A stretch of 64,000 bases of DNA from Clostridia bacterium. GTDB lineage: Bacteria; Bacillota; Clostridia; UBA1212. Position numbers and translations under genes: made by a program. This document shows, piece by piece, positions 34,930 through 51,033 of this stretch. Below the pieces are notes generated by a model, which saw only the letters and a program-made list of their open reading frames with translations, made no database searches and was not told the DNA's origin. Location: NCBI GenBank assembly GCA_017444825.1, contig JAFSVU010000008.1:1-64000 (forward strand), read 5' to 3'. Position 1 is the stretch's first letter. The number at the start of each line of letters is the position of its first letter.

Positions 34930-37900
34930 ATGAAAAGAGCGTTAACGCTTTTATGTATATTTGTCATTCTGACAGGTGTCGCAGGAATATTCTGCGTAGC
35001 CGGTTCCGCCGACGCGGAGATATGCGAGATCACCCTCGGCGATTTCACATTGGCGGGTGTTGGCGCAAGAGGTCTTTACGATTCGCGGGCCATGCTGAGC
35101 CAGCGGACAGTCATTGCAGTGCCTTACGTCGGCACGTCTTTAAGGATCTCGATAAACAGGGGTTATCAGGTCAGGATACACAGCGGGAGTCCATACGGAA
35201 AAATGACTGAAGCTTCGGACTGGTTCGGAAGTGCCGACCGGGACGTGGCTGTTTCCTATACTCTGCCGGAAAAATCAATATACATGAGAGCGTCCATAAA
35301 GCGCGCCGACGGCCGGGACATTGACATTGGCGAGTACGAAAGTGCCGGGCTTCGGATATCCTATGAGTGCAAAACCAATATCATAACCGCCAATGAGGAT
35401 GTGGCGAAGATCCTGACTGAGACCGATGACCCGGTAATAATTCACATATCCGATATACACGGCGACGTGATAAGGGCGGAGCGGGCAGCAGCCTTTGCGG
35501 ATCACGTCAACGCAGCAGCTGTTTTGGCCTCAGGCGACCTTACCGTATACAACCGTTCGGACTGGGGAAGCGCCCTCTTCGACGCGATGGATAAATACCC
35601 GGACAACATTTTTATGTACACTCTGGGAAATCACGACGCCATCAACGCTCCCGCGGACAATTACGGCGCTGTGATGGACGACGCATATTACAAAAACAAC
35701 CCTTACACGCCTGAAGGTGTGACGTATTACTACCGGGACCTTGACGATGAGATGCTGAGGATCATATCCGTGAACCAGCAGGAAGGCGCCAGGACAGCCA
35801 GAACGGGAGGGACCTGCTTCAGCCAGGCCCAGATCGACTGGCTTGTGGAGACACTGAAAACCACTCCCGAAGGCTTCGGAGTGCTTCTCATGTATCATTC
35901 CCCCGAGATATCCATGTATAACAAGTATGACCCGGATTACATGGAATTCTTCCAGCTTGAAAACCGCTACGACCAGCCTACCAACGTGGATTCCGGGTAC
36001 AGCGGAACCATACTTACGGACATTGTCGACGCCTTTATACTCCGGACGAAATTCACCGCAACCTACAGCGAAAGAAGAGGCGAATCCCCGGTAAAAGTCA
36101 ATGCTGATTTTACGGATGTGGCTGACGGAGTGGAGTTTATAGCCCACCTCACGGGCCATTACCACGCAGATACGGTCACTTATCTTCCCGGCGGCTGCAG
36201 CAAGCAGCTTATGCTTGGTGGTCCCTGCACTGTTGCGGCATACGGCGACATCGTCGGAAATCCCTGCCTTGCGGACTACAGCGACGCGGACAGGCACGGT
36301 GACGTGAAGGCCCACGACGACTTCAATGCCTATATCATCGACAGGAAAACCAAAACCATAAGAGTACTTAAGATCGGCGCGGACAGGGCCTTAAACGGTG
36401 AGAGCCGTTCCGACATGACCATCCCGTACACAGTTCCCTTTGAGGAAGGCGAATATCCTTTTAGCACCGAGAGCAAGGTTCAGTTAGACCTTGACGATGT
36501 AAACTGGGTAAACTACGGGACGAACCGGTACGGTCCGGACCCTTCATCGGACAAAGACGTCAGATGGTCCCAAGGCAGGATATTCGAGGTTCCCTACGAC
36601 GGCGCGGTTTTGTACGTTAAGATCAACGCCCCATATGAGCTTAGCATCCGCTCGGGCAGCTCCGTAACGGCCATGACAACGGAATACTCGTGGCTTAACA
36701 ACAAACCAATGTCAGACACTGCCTCAGACAGGGGCTTTGTATATAAACTGCCAAAGGGACACAAGTTTTTCTGCATTTCCGTCGCCAATATCACCAGGGA
36801 TTCAAGACAAAAGCAGCAGGTCACCGAGCATGACATGAATCTCCTCGACCTCGGTGCCGCGGGTGTAGAGCTGTGGTACGAGCCGGAGCCTTCCTTAAGC
36901 GAGCCCTATCTTTTCAGCACCAACAGCAAAATCAGGATCGATATGGAGGGCCTTGAATGGCTTAACTACGGAATCCAGACTGAAGGCCTCACGCCTTTAA
37001 ACCTTCCCGGTAAACGTATCTCACCGGGCATGATATTCGACGTGCCCTATGACGGTGCGATCCTCTACGTTAAGGTCAATTCTCCCTACGAGGTATGCAT
37101 AAGGACCGGCCCCGCCGCTGACAGGCTTACCAACAACAGATACTGGTTCAACAACAAATGCCTTTCTTCCGGGGACTATTATTACGGCTACGCTTACAAG
37201 GTCCCTTCGGGCCACACCAAATTCGCCATCACTGTCGCCAATATGCCCCGCACCGCCTACGGAAACGTGGAGTCCTGGAACAGGACCATCTCCCTTGATG
37301 AGCTTGATGCCTGCGGAGTCGAGATCTGGTACGAGCCCTGCGGCCACAGCTTTAATCAGGGAACCTGCTCGATCTGCGGACTTTACGAGCCTCCCTTTAA
37401 ACTTATTGAAGAGCCCCCGGACGTTTCGGCAGCCATTGGCGATAGCATAAAAGTTTCGGTAAAGGCCGAAGGAAATGACCTTCTATATCATTGGTTTTTC
37501 AAAAACAAGGACGGCGATAAATTCATCGAATCGGACTGCACCGTTGATAGCTATGAGTGCGTCATGAACTCATTCTGTGACGGTCGTGAGATATATTGCG
37601 TCATAAGCTCGCCATATGGCTACGATGATATCAAAACAGACACCGTCACCATCACGGCCATACACCCCTCCTTCAAGATCACAAAGGAGCCCGAAAGCGT
37701 CATAGCAAATATCGGAGATCAGGTCACGGTATCCGTCACCGCCGAAGGAGAGGGGCTGAGATATATATGGTACGAAAAGGATGCCGGCGAGGATGAGTTC
37801 AGAAGATCTGATGCAAAGACCAGAAAATACCGTCTTAAGATGGAAGAGGAATGCAACGGGCGTGAGGTCTACTGCGTGATAACCGATAAAAACGGTGACG

Positions 37901-45222: not shown

Positions 45223-47835
45223 TTATTCCGTAACGATCCTGCCGGCCTCGTAGCCCTCTTCTTCGATAACCTCTCTCAGCTTCTTTTCGTCCAAAGCTTC
45301 CTTTGAAAATATCACCGTTTCGTTTTTGTCATGGTTTGACTCGACGGAAATGACGTCGAACCCGTTTTTGACGGCATTGTTTACGTGTCTTTCGCAATTG
45401 CCGCACATCATTCCTTTAACTTCAACAACGGTTTTTACCATTTTTTCTTCTCCTTTACAGCAAAGATCGCAGGCAGTATTATCGCCCTCATCCGGCATTT
45501 TTTCGTTGCCGGCATCTATTATAGCACAAACATCGCCTTCGGGCGAACAATTACATGCATTGGTTTCAGTTTTATTATCACGTTTCGGAAGCTTTCCGAA
45601 GCATTTATTGCCAAGGGTAAGAAGTCTTAAGGAATTGGTCACGACCAGGACTGAGGAGATGCTCATTGCGATGGATGCAAATGCCGGGGAGAGCGCAAAA
45701 GACTCGTTGATCAAAGTGAAGAGGCCCGCCGCTAAAGGTATCCCGATTATGTTATAACCAAAGGCCCAGAACAGGTTTTCGTGGATCACGTTGAGAGTCC
45801 TGCCCGCCATGAGGATAGCACCGGAGGCCTGTTTTAAGCTCGTGCCTGTTATTACCACATCCGCCGCCTCCATAGCGATATCCGTACCTCTTCCGATGGC
45901 AATTCCCACGTCAGCTGCAGTAAGCGCCGGAGCGTCGTTGATGCCGTCTCCTACCATTGCGACTTTGTATTTGCTTTTTGCCGCAAGCTCCGATACGATC
46001 CCGGATTTATCACCCGGAAGAAGACCCGCTCTGAAATCGTCGATTCCTACAAGTTCCGCGACTGCCCGGGCGGAGTTTTCGTTGTCGCCGGTAAGCATTA
46101 CTGTCTTGATATTCTTCCTGTGAAGATCAGAGATGGCCTCTTCCGCGTTGTCCGCAAGGGAATCCGAGATCAGGATCGCTCCAAGATAAGATGAGCCTCT
46201 CGATACGTAAACGGCGCTTCCCGCAAATGACTCGGCTTCACTAACGGGGCCGGGATCCGAAGGAAGAAAGCCTTTCTTTCCACAGTATATCGTTCCGTTA
46301 TCCGTGATAACTTTTGCACCCTGTCCGGGAATAAACTCTTTTTCAAGGCCTTTATCTTCAGCCTTGAAGCAGAAATTATCGGCAGCGTATTTAACGATAG
46401 CCGCAGCGATGGGATGTGTGCCACCGGATTCGCAAAGTGCCGCGGCTTCCGCCAGCTCCTTTTCGGAAACGCCTTCGCCGGGGACAGTCTGTTTGACCGT
46501 CATCAGTCCCTTTGTGAGGGTCCCGGTCTTGTCAAAGACCACCGTTTTCACTCTTCCTGATATCTCAAGAGCTTCCGAAGTCTTATACAAAACTCCCCGT
46601 TTTGCCGCCGCGGCACTTCCGCATATGATTGCAACCGGAGTTGCGAGACCCAGTGCGCAGGGGCAGGATATGACGAGCACAGACACGGCTCTCGTAAGAG
46701 AATAACCGATATCTTTTCCTGCAATAAGCCATATCGAAAGCACGACCAGCGCTATTGCCATCACCGCAGGGACGAAAACGGCAGCCACCTTGTCGGCCAC
46801 CTTGGCAATGGGAGCCTTTGTGGACGCGATCTCACGCACCAGCTCAGCCATCCTGTCGACCGTGGTCTCGCCGCTGACGCTTGTGACCTTCGCCGTTATA
46901 ACGCCGGTGATGTTGACAGTTCCGGAAACAGCCTTGTCGCCTGCTTTTTTAAATACGGGTATGCTCTCACCGGTAACCGAACTCTCATCTATCTCCGAGG
47001 AGCCCGAGATGATTTCGCAGTCAAGGGCTATCCTGTCGCCGGGCTTAATGATGACTGTCTCACCGAGAGCAACCTCTTTTGTGGGTATTTCAAGTTCTGT
47101 TCCGTCCCGCATCACAGTGCAGCTGTCGGAAACCAGTTCCTTTAAAGAGGATACCGCATCGGTGGCACGGCCCTTGGCGATTGCTTCGAGAAGCTTTCCG
47201 ATGCCCATAAAGGTGAGGATCATTGCCGAAGACTCAAAATAGAAGTCGGGCATGGGATCCGTATCTCCTGTTAAGATGAGCTTAATGAGGACCGCGAGAC
47301 TGTAGCCGAAGGATGCCACCACACCCGTTGCCACAAGGGAATCCATATTGGGAGAGAGCTTAAACAGCGCCTTAAAGCCGCTGAAAAAGATCCTGTAGTT
47401 TATGATTATGACCGCAAGAGAAAGGACCGCCTGGATAACACCGGAAACGATCATCACATCCGCGCCGCCCGTGTGGTCATGACCGCCCATATCCATTCCG
47501 AGGGTCATGGATACAGTCATGAGAACGGCCAGCAATACGGTAGATACGGCAAGTATCACTATCCTTCTCCTGATATCCTTGCTGCGTTCCTTTTTTTGTA
47601 CGTCTCCGGATCTGTCTGTTTTTGATCTGAGTCTAGCCCCGTAGCCCGCATCTTTTACGGCATCCATCACTTCCGAAACGACAAAATCCCCCTCGACCCG
47701 CATGTCGCCGGTCAGGAGGTTTACAGTCACATTTTTGACTCCTTTTACGGAGCCTGCCGCTTTTTCCACCCGCGAAACACAGGCGGCGCAGCTCATTCCG
47801 GTCACAATATAATCTGTTGTCATTTTTACTGTCAT
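45223..47835 (-). CDS. copA: Copper-type P1B ATPase with an extra C-terminal metal-binding domain
   Basis: 870 residues. It pumps Cu(I) out of the cytoplasm using ATP. An N-terminal HMA domain has GMSCAAC (Cys16, Cys19). The core has the metal-site SCPCALGLATPV (Cys392, Cys394), phosphorylated Asp436 in FDKTGTLTKG, GESIPV, GTHPIAAAI and MVGDGINDAPAL. A His-rich luminal loop GMDMGGHDHTGG lies between the first helices. After the last helix come a cysteine-rich linker (CNCSPEGDVC, CDLCCKG) and a second HMA domain with MMCGNCERHV (about 810-814). C-terminal HMA domains are unusual in CopA. No CsoR or CopZ gene is nearby. No clear ribosome site precedes ATG 47835; ATG 47823 is an alternative. Confidence 0.92.
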   Translation of the reverse strand: MTVKMTTDYIVTGMSCAACVSRVEKAAGSVKGVKNVTVNLLTGDMRVEGDFVVSEVMDAVKDAGYGARLRSKTDRSGDVQKKERSKDIRRRIVILAVSTVLLAVLMTVSMTLGMDMGGHDHTGGADVMIVSGVIQAVLSLAVIIINYRIFFSGFKALFKLSPNMDSLVATGVVASFGYSLAVLIKLILTGDTDPMPDFYFESSAMILTFMGIGKLLEAIAKGRATDAVSSLKELVSDSCTVMRDGTELEIPTKEVALGETVIIKPGDRIALDCEIISGSSEIDESSVTGESIPVFKKAGDKAVSGTVNITGVITAKVTSVSGETTVDRMAELVREIASTKAPIAKVADKVAAVFVPAVMAIALVVLSIWLIAGKDIGYSLTRAVSVLVISCPCALGLATPVAIICGSAAAAKRGVLYKTSEALEISGRVKTVVFDKTGTLTKGLMTVKQTVPGEGVSEKELAEAAALCESGGTHPIAAAIVKYAADNFCFKAEDKGLEKEFIPGQGAKVITDNGTIYCGKKGFLPSDPGPVSEAESFAGSAVYVSRGSSYLGAILISDSLADNAEEAISDLHRKNIKTVMLTGDNENSARAVAELVGIDDFRAGLLPGDKSGIVSELAAKSKYKVAMVGDGINDAPALTAADVGIAIGRGTDIAMEAADVVITGTSLKQASGAILMAGRTLNVIHENLFWAFGYNIIGIPLAAGLFTLINESFALSPAFASIAMSISSVLVVTNSLRLLTLGNKCFGKLPKRDNKTETNACNCSPEGDVCAIIDAGNEKMPDEGDNTACDLCCKGEEKMVKTVVEVKGMMCGNCERHVNNAVKNGFDVISVESNHDKNETVIFSKEALDEKKLREVIEEEGYEAGRIVTE

Positions 47836-47845
47836 TGGTTATGCA

Positions 47846-49627
47846 CTATTTTGCGTAGGCTACCACAAGCTGGGCAATGCCCGACGCGCGCATAAATTTG
47901 TCGAGATAAGGCTTCTCCGCAGCATCGCTTCCGATGAAAAGAAGCTGCCTGTCGGATTCCGAGGAAGTGAAGGACGAAAGAGCTGCTCTGAAGGACAGAA
48001 GCGCGAGCACGCTGTCACTGCTTACGGCGGTGACGTTGTACTTGTTATCCACGTTAAACTCGGCTGTATCCCCTGATGTTTTGAAATATATGTCAGAGGC
48101 AAGCTTACATGCGGGCTTTACCACCTCAAGCATGAATTTCTTCTCTGCGGTGTTTGCCGCATTGATGGATATAAGCAGGGAGTTAATGTCATTGTTAAGT
48201 TCGTATATCCTTGCGTCGATTCCGTCCAGTATGGTCATGGCTTCCGAGAAGCCCACCGTATCCGTATCAGTCAGCGTTGCGATGTCGCTCTGGATCCGCT
48301 CGATGCTGGTGGCAAGGGGCTCCCTGGTGGCGCTGAGGTTCGTCACGGTCTTTTCAAGTTCCGTGGCCTGTTTCATGACCGCAAAGCGCCTCTCCGCGTC
48401 GTTTGCCTCCCTCATTACGTCCTCTGACCGGCGCCATTTTTCGAGAGTCTCCCGGACCGATCTGTCGGGCATCATGGCCAGAAGCTCTTCGTTCTTGTAG
48501 AATATCTCTTTTTTGAGCCGCTCAGCCTCGTCTGCGTAGGTCGTCACGCGCCCGTCGGTCTTGAGAGTGAATCTCGTGGTAAATTTCGAAAGCTTATAGA
48601 TGCCGAAAACTATTCCGATTACGGCAAAGACAGCCCCGAGTATCTCGATAGGCCAGCCCACCGGAGTTTCCTTAAGGGCGGAAAGACCGCCCGCAATAAG
48701 AGCACAGCCCGCGGCAAATGAAATCAAAGGAAGTATGACCGTCGGCAAAAGCTTTGTGTTGACGAGCCTGGTATTTTCGCTCTCGGCAAAGTCCAGCTGC
48801 CTCATCAGGACCAGCAGCTGATCGTAGGAGGCCATTATCTTGTCCTTCATAAGAAGAGTCCTGGCGGAATCGCAAAGGGCAAATATCCTGTCGTTGTCCC
48901 TGATGGTGGCGTCAACGGATGCCAGCTCGTTTTCGGCAGCCTCAAGCTCCACGTGCTTTCTTCTTAGAGACGTATCCCTCTCCTCGATTGCCTCAAGGGT
49001 CTCGGTCATCACCGACTTCTGGGCCACAAGCACGTCGTATTCTCCGGCCTTAGTCCTGGAATTGGTCAGTTTCGAAAGCTTCTGCCTGAGCTTCTGTATG
49101 AAATCTTTTGGCGTGGGACGTCCGTCGTTCACAGCGAGGAGAGACGAAAGCTTTCCCAGGTTTATGGTGCCGCTTTGGACCTCCGGAGAAGCACCAAAGT
49201 CCTTAACTGCCGAAATAAAGGCCCCCTCCGAAATGAACAGAGTCTTTTCGCCTACCGTTCTGCTGAGATCCACCTTAAGGTCTCTTCCGGTCCCCGTATC
49301 TACGATTCTGAAGAAATCGTCTTCTATCTTATCGCCGAAAAAGTTCGAAAGTCTGTAGTTCCTTCCGCAGGCCTCAAAGATCAGTTCGCCGCCGTAAAGT
49401 ATCTTCTGCCCCCTGCTGTCCACCAGTCCCTCGGGTCTGAACAAGTCCCTGGTGCTTACGCCGTTCTTGTAAGAGTGGCCGTAAAGCATCGTTCTTATGA
49501 ATTCGAAAAATAGATCGGTATCCGTGCGAAGTCCCCTCGAAACGTTGAGGATGCCGTTATTGTCCGGTATGAATTCACAGTTGACAAGGGATCCGAATCC
49601 GTAAACCGTAGCTTTTTTTATGATCAT
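47846..49627 (-). CDS. YhaN/SbcC-like coiled-coil protein lacking ATPase motifs
   Basis: 593 residues. The frame begins like YhaN (TVYGFGSLVNCEFIPDNNGI ... FEFIRTMLYG), where relatives carry NGxGKST just before the FIRxMxYG helix. Here the loop reads LNVSRGLRTDTDLF, so the Walker A lysine and Ser/Thr are absent. Coiled coils follow (about 180-275 and 360-480) around two membrane helices (about 290-345, LISFAAGCALIAGGLSAL and ILGAVFAVIGIVFGIY). The C-terminus, where Walker B and the D-loop should be, reads RQLLFIGSDAAEKPYLDKF with no DDP-type motif. The start overlaps the YhaO-like gene by 4 bases. It is probably a structural or regulatory pseudo-ATPase, not a decayed gene, because the frame is full length. 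Confidence 0.7.
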   Translation of the reverse strand: MIIKKATVYGFGSLVNCEFIPDNNGILNVSRGLRTDTDLFFEFIRTMLYGHSYKNGVSTRDLFRPEGLVDSRGQKILYGGELIFEACGRNYRLSNFFGDKIEDDFFRIVDTGTGRDLKVDLSRTVGEKTLFISEGAFISAVKDFGASPEVQSGTINLGKLSSLLAVNDGRPTPKDFIQKLRQKLSKLTNSRTKAGEYDVLVAQKSVMTETLEAIEERDTSLRRKHVELEAAENELASVDATIRDNDRIFALCDSARTLLMKDKIMASYDQLLVLMRQLDFAESENTRLVNTKLLPTVILPLISFAAGCALIAGGLSALKETPVGWPIEILGAVFAVIGIVFGIYKLSKFTTRFTLKTDGRVTTYADEAERLKKEIFYKNEELLAMMPDRSVRETLEKWRRSEDVMREANDAERRFAVMKQATELEKTVTNLSATREPLATSIERIQSDIATLTDTDTVGFSEAMTILDGIDARIYELNNDINSLLISINAANTAEKKFMLEVVKPACKLASDIYFKTSGDTAEFNVDNKYNVTAVSSDSVLALLSFRAALSSFTSSESDRQLLFIGSDAAEKPYLDKFMRASGIAQLVVAYAK

Positions 49628-51033
49628 AATCCCTCGCCCCCTTTCTTATCGGCACTGTCAACGCCATCATCGCCAAGGTCAGCCTTCACGAATTTGAAAT
49701 TCTCCTCGGGTTTAATGGCGTCCGCAAGCTCCGCGAGGATATCCCGGGCCTCGTCATTTGTCATGACGCTATCGATCTCCATCTCGGGTTCCGGCTCCGG
49801 CTGAAGCGCTCCCGCCTTGATCTCAAGGGATGTGAATACGCCGGTAAGGTTCATATTGTCCACGATCTTGAGCCCGAGGTTGACGGCATTCTCGTAATTT
49901 TTTTCACGGTAAGTGGCCGAAGAGCCCGTTTTTTTCTGCTCCTCTCTCGCATTATGCACAGTCTCCCAGATGGTGGCCGTATACATGCCTCTGAAGGTCT
50001 TCTCCGCGCTGTACAGGCGCAGGTTCGGGTTCTTAAACGTCTTATCCACCACTTCGACGAGGGGAAATGAATCTCTTAGTATCTCGCCAATGGCATCCAC
50101 GTCTATGTTTTCGTCAAAGCTGAGCTCTCCGATTATCTCAAATCTGGTGCAGTTATCGCTGATGGCAAGGCGTTTAACGTCCTTCGCAATGGCCTCCGGG
50201 GAGCAGTCGGTGCGGCCCGACACGTCAAATTTTATGACCTCGTATTTTACCGGCGAAACGTCAACGAACTCAGCGGAAAGATACCTTCCGTCGCTGACCT
50301 CGCCAACGTAGACACCGCACTGGCCCGTCTCCGAAAAATCAGAGGGGCAGATGTGGCCCGGAACCAGTATGTTGCCTTTTCTGGAATTGGTTTTTTCACC
50401 GCCCACAGCGCAAAGATCGAAGCCGCAGTCCTTAAGCACGTCAAGAGGTATCGGGTTGAAAGGCGACGTCTGCCCGTCTTCGACCACGTGACCGTGGATA
50501 ACGAGTACGTTGAGATACGTGGAGGAGAGCCTTGGCGTCTTTCCCGTGTCGGAAATAAGAAGGGATTCCTTGCAGAAATGCCCGTCAAAGGCTCTTCCGT
50601 ATATTCTGACGCCCTTCCTGCCGCTTTCCTTACCGCCGCTGAAAAGGTAGTCCCTGTCGGTGGTGCCGAGAAGCTTGTCGTTAAATTCGATCTCACTTAT
50701 CTCGCCCGCAGGAAAAACGTACACGTTGGGCGGCCAGGTCTGGGTCTGATAGCAGGACCCTGCGCAAGACGGGTCACAGCTTCCGGGGGCGATTATGACT
50801 CTGGTTGAAGGTATTGAATAGAATTCGTCGGATACGTGCTTAATGACTGAAGGATTCGGTTTTTCCGAGTCAAACAGATTTCCGGTTATGAAAAGATATT
50901 CGATACGGCGCTGCTTACAAAGCTTTATGGCCGCGTCAAAAGCGGAGAGCCTGTCGGATGCTCCCGTTATACCGGATTTAAACCGTCTGTCAAGGTTGGC
51001 CGCTCCCATGACCATGAACGAAAAATTCTTCAT
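49624..51033 (-). CDS. YhaO/SbcD-like protein with lost metallophosphoesterase ligands
   Basis: 469 residues. The layout matches SbcD/YhaO nucleases, but the catalytic motifs are changed: DxH is AAN (Ala11, Asn13) in MGAANLDRRF, GDLFD is GNLFD (51-55) and GNHD is GSCD (84-87) in IIAPGSCDPSC. GHxH appears as GGEKTN near 211. One histidine pair (IHGHV, about 179-183) remains. The surrounding fold is kept (RIEYLFITGNLFDSEKPNPS, FDLCAVGGE). An acidic C-terminal extension follows. Loss of most metal ligands argues against nuclease activity. It overlaps the equally degenerate YhaN-like gene by 4 bases, so the pair has probably evolved together. Cellular role unknown. Confidence 0.72.
   Translation of the reverse strand: MKNFSFMVMGAANLDRRFKSGITGASDRLSAFDAAIKLCKQRRIEYLFITGNLFDSEKPNPSVIKHVSDEFYSIPSTRVIIAPGSCDPSCAGSCYQTQTWPPNVYVFPAGEISEIEFNDKLLGTTDRDYLFSGGKESGRKGVRIYGRAFDGHFCKESLLISDTGKTPRLSSTYLNVLVIHGHVVEDGQTSPFNPIPLDVLKDCGFDLCAVGGEKTNSRKGNILVPGHICPSDFSETGQCGVYVGEVSDGRYLSAEFVDVSPVKYEVIKFDVSGRTDCSPEAIAKDVKRLAISDNCTRFEIIGELSFDENIDVDAIGEILRDSFPLVEVVDKTFKNPNLRLYSAEKTFRGMYTATIWETVHNAREEQKKTGSSATYREKNYENAVNLGLKIVDNMNLTGVFTSLEIKAGALQPEPEPEMEIDSVMTNDEARDILAELADAIKPEENFKFVKADLGDDGVDSADKKGGEGL

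Follow-up and report, generated by a model that had tools for sequence, protein, structure and literature searches.

Introduction

Mre11/Rad50 complexes occur in all domains of life and are usually explained by ATP-gated nuclease action. The YhaO/YhaN (SbcE/SbcF) proteins of Bacillus are one such gene pair, made up of an Mre11-like and an SMC/Rad50-like member. In B. subtilis, YhaN is SbcE and has been linked to double-strand-break repair (Krishnamurthy 2010, as cited in PMC3896406 and PMC4205851), and three papers tie Bacillus SbcE and SbcF to break repair and SOS (PMC3896406; PMC4205851; PMC12748557), the last of these placing SbcEF among SMC-like repair factors. A non-catalytic use of the Mre11-type phosphodiesterase fold has been described for the B-subunits of eukaryotic replicative DNA polymerases, which have lost the catalytic motifs and now act as an assembly scaffold (PMC4996933). 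The B-subunits differ from the case described below in that they belong to an unrelated complex, have no Rad50-like partner and provide only one pseudoenzyme partner. A search of the open-access literature for Mre11/Rad50 pairs that are catalytically dead returned no paper.

The locus analyzed here lies in a stretch of 64,000 nucleotides (the window) from the genome of a Clostridia bacterium. It encodes a pair that resembles SbcC/SbcD and Mre11/Rad50 in folds, domain order and pairing but carries a membrane hairpin instead of a zinc hook at the coil apex, and is without Walker A and B motifs, signature and metal ligands. Relative to Bacillus YhaO/YhaN, it lacks both the metal site and the nucleotide site and has a genus-specific insert and an acidic tail. 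We think it reasonably likely that the pair is orthologous to YhaON, the membrane-type Mre11/Rad50 complex known in Bacillus as SbcEF, and has been converted to a purely structural, non-catalytic, membrane-anchored scaffold. In what follows, G000 is the genome of the window, G002-G005 are the congeners that carry the pair (genus g1) and G001 is the sixth species of the genus; every named relative is a metagenome assembly, in most cases from the gut of a ruminant.

Results and discussion

Gene pair and operon setting

The two genes are adjacent and co-oriented, with a 4-bp ATGA overlap:

49624..51033, minus strand: yhaO, encoding a YhaO/SbcF/Mre11-like pseudo-nuclease of 469 aa (open reading frame; Mre11 fold by AlphaFold2 and Foldseek; 1/8 active-site residues)
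47846..49627, minus strand: yhaN, encoding a YhaN/SbcE/Rad50-like pseudo-ATPase of 593 aa (open reading frame; Rad50/SMC-like fold by AlphaFold2 and Foldseek)

Both frames are full length and overlap by four bases, as a sequence-only reading of the window had proposed, and their adjacency is kept in all five species of the genus that carry them. The gene order is pgsA, an ABC exporter gene, yhaO, yhaN, copA (a Cu-type P-ATPase), scpA and scpB, in a tight, co-directional arrangement that leaves 48 bp upstream of yhaO, where a good ribosome-binding site (AAGGATGG) is located, and 10 bp downstream of yhaN. The gene yhaM is not among the genes that directly adjoin the pair. The copper-transporter-like P-type ATPase (45223-47835) has an N-terminal heavy-metal domain and a second CxxC domain at its C-terminus; in most congeners its gene separates yhaN from scpAB, the exception being G005.

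YhaO retains the Mre11 fold without its active site

The AlphaFold2 model of YhaO (pLDDT 71.7, from an alignment of eight sequences only) has the calcineurin-like Mre11 fold, and its top 50 PDB matches in Foldseek are all Mre11 or SbcD (best E 1.3e-12), a likeness that at E about 1e-12 is not due to chance. The Pfam Metallophos model matches the protein below threshold (14.2 against a cut-off of 21.5 bits). Eight positions, which we take to be Asp8, His10, Asp49, Asn84, His85, His173, His206 and His208 of P. furiosus Mre11, were scored in an alignment with about 40 relatives. The window protein has Ala, Asn, Asn, Ser, Cys, His, Gly and Lys at these positions and thus keeps one of the eight metal and catalytic residues. 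The altered motifs and the additions to the fold are as follows:

50995..51003, minus strand: degenerate motif I, A11-A12-N13 in place of D-x-H (alignment with intact relatives)
50869..50883, minus strand: degenerate motif II, GNLFD, residues 51-55, with Asp changed to Asn at residue 52; common to G000, G002 and G004 (alignment)
50773..50784, minus strand: degenerate motif III, GSCD (residues 84-87) in place of GNHD, with the metal-ligand Asn and the proton-donor His gone (alignment)
50611..50676, minus strand: insert of ~20 aa, residues 120-141, RDYLFSGGxETGRKG (alignment; low pLDDT at 119-138)
50494..50496, minus strand: His180 at the Mre11 His173 position, motif IV; the sole active-site residue left (alignment)
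50392..50403, minus strand: degenerate motif V, GGEK (residues 211-214) in place of GHxH (alignment)
49855..50022, minus strand: C-terminal helices, residues 338-393, at the position of the Rad50-docking element of Mre11/SbcD and with a putative docking role (AlphaFold2 helices)
49624..49851, minus strand: acidic disordered C-terminal tail, residues 395-469, with 19 Asp/Glu and 7 Lys/Arg; genus-specific (pLDDT < 50; composition; absent in intact relatives)

The sequence-only reading had AAN for DxH, GNLFD for GDLFD, GSCD for GNHD and GGEK for GHxH, and the alignment confirms all four substitutions. The 120-141 insert is found in the genus and partly in the sister genus g2, and it is strongly conserved in G000, G002, G003 and G004. 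The lowest estimated omega in YhaO falls in the region of residues 270-400.

YhaN retains the coils and the membrane hairpin without a nucleotide site

The AlphaFold2 model of YhaN (pLDDT 80) matches Rad50 best in Foldseek, followed by SMC heads, and the predicted secondary structure is that of a split ABC head joined by a long coiled coil, in which the C-terminal head is of low confidence (pLDDT about 46-60 at residues 551-580 and 32 at the very end). Sequence searches against Pfam, NCBIfam and PDB were too weak to classify the protein, and Pfam returned no ABC/AAA-related family. Walker A, signature and Walker B are all missing: GK[S/T] occurs nowhere in the protein, and the last 130 residues contain no hydrophobic-DD/DE. 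The relevant features are:

49508..49537, minus strand: lost P-loop position, RGLRTDTDLF in place of YGxNExGKST (alignment, motif scan)
48761..49042, minus strand: first coiled-coil arm, residues 196-289 (AlphaFold2 helices)
48578..48754, minus strand: two transmembrane helices at the coil apex, residues about 292-350 (hydropathy; AlphaFold2 helices)
48074..48538, minus strand: second coiled-coil arm, residues 364-518 (AlphaFold2 helices)
48008..48013, minus strand: site at which 12 residues, and with them the ABC signature (SYSGAxxDQ), are deleted; the deletion is the same in all five species of the genus with the pair (alignment)
47927..47944, minus strand: lost Walker B position, LLFIGS in place of LLLDDP (alignment, motif scan)

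The absence of GxGKST from its expected place and of Walker B near the C-terminus, reported from sequence alone, therefore holds and is extended by the 12-column signature deletion, and the helices listed above bear out the accompanying claim that the coiled coils and the two membrane helices are kept. The two hydrophobic helices at the apex are also present in intact YhaN members, and thus the hairpin belongs to the YhaN type, in which it replaces the zinc hook.

Orthology and order of loss within the genus

The search for the pair covered 31 genomes of the order and located it in five of the six species of the genus. No copy was detectable in G001, an assembly that is 77% complete. The ABC exporter finds at best a match of 37% identity there, so the whole locus is absent either from the genome or from the assembly. 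YhaN is without a P-loop in all five species. The YhaO active site retains 7/8 residues in G003 and G005 (only His206 is changed, to Ser), 2/8 in each of G002 and G004, and 1/8 in G000. Two changes, D49N and H206G, are common to the YhaO of G000, G002 and G004, which dates the inactivation to before the divergence of this trio. On this pattern of residues, loss of the ATPase together with one metal ligand probably came first in the genus, and full loss of the nuclease site followed.

The sequence-only reading had proposed aligning homologs from related Clostridia at the metal and P-loop positions, and these positions, degenerate in the genus, prove to be intact in both partners of the sister genera (G006; G007 and G008). 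In the gene tree, the g1 clade (100/100) is sister to the intact G006 (100/99), and the intact G007/G008 follow next (100/100). The same ABC exporter gene lies directly upstream of the intact pair in G006. Tree support and the shared neighbor gene together identify the dead pair as the ortholog of the intact YhaON of the sister genera.

Active-site losses elsewhere in the order

The order is enriched for losses at the YhaO active site, as 15 of the 27 orthologs examined there are missing one or more of the eight residues, compared with none of 14 from the other orders in the class. In genus g10 of family f2, the YhaN of G017, G024, G030 and G018 is without a P-loop, and the YhaO active site retains 7/8, 5/8, 2/8 and 1/8 residues, respectively; YhaO is only 227-260 aa long in G030, G018 and G028, and G023 has none. 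The dead YhaO/YhaN series of g10 was recorded at loci L057, L059, L061, L062 and L063. Intact lineages within family f1 separate the g1 and g10 losses with strong support. Deeper in the gene tree, the position of g10 has weak support (68/84) and is also based on taxonomic assignment to genus and family. The dual loss very probably arose at least twice in the order. In g10 it ends in truncation or absence, which indicates that a non-catalytic pair can also be in the course of being lost, whereas in g1 both genes are full length.

A different variant occurs in G016, G019, G027 and G025, where YhaO has GNND for GNHD and the P-loop of YhaN is intact. The GNHD histidine is the proton donor that Mre11 and DP1 are described as requiring for nuclease activity (PMC4996933). 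Judged from sequence, the GNND variant is probably nuclease-impaired and ATPase-intact. The loci with this replacement of the proton-donor His by Asn are L038, L040, L044 and L052.

A second, intact pair

G000 contains a second YhaO/YhaN-type pair, likewise encoded by adjacent genes (contig C56; L094:7755-8825, 356 aa, and L094:5127-7748, 873 aa). This pair differs from that of the window in that all motifs are intact (DLHLG, GDVFD, GNHD, MLHG and GHVH; NGEGKST, LSTGQ and FMVLDDP) and in that its YhaO falls in a distant clade, separated by a branch of 1.6 in the gene tree. Orthologous, intact YhaO2 also occurs in G002, G003 and G004. It is accompanied by intact YhaN2 in G003 and G004, and in G002 the contig ends before YhaN2. 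The second pair is distant from both SbcCD and YhaON. Canonical SbcD (TIGR00619, above cut-off) is found in the sister genera and was not found with this model in genus g1, in which the second pair appears to stand in for the canonical SbcCD that the sister genera have kept. G000 also encodes an AddA-like protein (489.6 bits, below the model cut-off). We considered and rejected the idea that the dead pair is a degenerate paralog beside its own intact copy, as the intact YhaON of the sister genera has its positional ortholog in the dead pair, and the second pair belongs to a distant clade.

A functional connection between the pairs can nevertheless be envisaged, with the dead pair, or one half of it, serving as a dominant-negative or regulatory partner that tunes or tethers YhaO2/YhaN2 and not as an independent scaffold. 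All four of the more complete genomes with the dead pair (G000, G002, G003 and G004) contain intact YhaO2, and Mre11 and Rad50 act as dimers, so that mixed dimers are conceivable. We regard this role as unlikely given the length of the branch between the two YhaO types, the 873 aa of YhaN2 against 593 aa for YhaN, the location of the pairs in different operons, and the dual loss in g10 without a consistent second pair.

Both genes are under purifying selection

Omega was estimated by a GY94 codon likelihood fit on the three fully degenerate species (G000, G002 and G004). The fit afforded values of 0.092 for yhaO and 0.097 for yhaN, compared with 0.087 for copA, 0.066 for the ABC exporter, 0.071 for the intact yhaO2 and 0.092 for the intact yhaN2; because synonymous sites are near saturation, these are approximate values. 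An omega of 1 is rejected for both genes (2dlnL of 403 for yhaO and 529 for yhaN), and the model-free differences by codon position (0.30/0.25/0.61) agree. Neutral simulation at 20% substitution produced about 9-10 stops per gene; the real genes have none, and neither a stop nor a frameshift occurs in yhaO or yhaN across the five species. Since the trio shares D49N and H206G as well as the deletion and the loss of the P-loop, this constraint acted after inactivation. Non-catalysis and purifying selection on both genes are thus well supported by the sequence evidence. A shift of constraint from the heads to the coils and docking region is clear only in G003-G005 (coil identity about equal to that of the head); in the degenerate trio, no clear difference from intact pairs of similar divergence was seen, and the shift was rejected there.

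The sequence-only reading held the pair to be conserved and named intact relatives combined with near-neutral dN/dS as the mark of simple decay. Intact relatives do exist, yet dN/dS is about 0.09, like that of intact neighbors, and the degenerate sequence is itself conserved. Neither the relaxed selection nor the disrupted frames of a pseudogene are present, and ongoing neutral decay is ruled out by omega, the codon-position pattern and the stop simulation. A slower course, in which the pair became redundant once the second pair was acquired and is now being lost, would account for the missing active sites, for the presence of a backup pair and for the comparable g10 pair, which ranges from near-intact through truncated to absent. 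It is improbable because the low omega holds for both genes across a synonymous-saturating divergence that is all later than the shared inactivating changes, the frames of all five species are open, and new sequence is conserved at the former P-loop and in the insert.

That conservation could alternatively reflect a changed enzyme, with a YhaO site rebuilt for another substrate or non-canonical nucleotide binding by YhaN, as the positions of the lost motifs are partly conserved (GNLFD, GGEK/GGAS, GLxxDTDLFFEF). However, seven of the eight metal and catalytic positions are replaced, mostly by non-ligands, the species differ from one another at DxH (AAN/DAC/NIH), GNHD (GSCD/GSFD/GACD) and GHxH (GGEK/GGAS), and the alignment contains no alternative cluster of Asp, His or Cys conserved in the trio, all of which leaves this explanation with little to recommend it. 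Although the named genomes of the group are all metagenome assemblies, a chimeric contig or sequencing errors can be dismissed for practical purposes, as the same degenerate genes recur beside the same neighbors in five genomes that were assembled separately and come from several studies.

A proposed model for a non-catalytic complex at the membrane

Alignments, predicted structures and codon fits show that the folds, coils, transmembrane hairpin and gene pairing have been kept, that both active sites have been destroyed, and that strong purifying selection followed inactivation. They suggest a second function of the complex for which neither DNA cleavage nor ATP is required. The transmembrane hairpin makes a structural or sensing role at the membrane plausible. 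Our preferred reading, that the pair persists as a scaffold, can be cast as a model in which, we infer, the two proteins still form a complex that is anchored by the hairpin and serves as a static scaffold or clamp linked to the membrane. YhaO would dock by its C-terminal helices onto the base of the YhaN coils, and the apical hairpin would fix YhaN in the membrane, so that a head able to bind DNA or protein would be kept at a constant distance from the bilayer. The head would be held without an ATP-driven cycle of opening and closing and without cutting, and enzymatic processing of DNA ends would fall to AddAB and to the intact second pair elsewhere in the genome. On YhaO, the insert and the acidic tail, both genus-specific, are likely contact sites for a new partner.

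A lineage in which both partners are non-catalytic yet under purifying selection amounts to a natural separation-of-function experiment and points to a structural role for the membrane-type (YhaON/SbcEF) complex. The stepwise series from intact through ATPase-dead to doubly dead pairs is available for testing such a role. More tentatively, the membrane-linked scaffolding of Mre11/Rad50-type complexes may be separable from both nuclease and ATPase activity, and a fully catalysis-free version of the complex may have evolved independently two or more times within a single clostridial order, in this genus with a new insert and tail for binding a partner.

Elsewhere in the window, a metallophosphoesterase domain (about 35437-35964, plus strand; Pfam match above cut-off) lies within an open frame of 1183 residues that probably encodes a large secreted protein.
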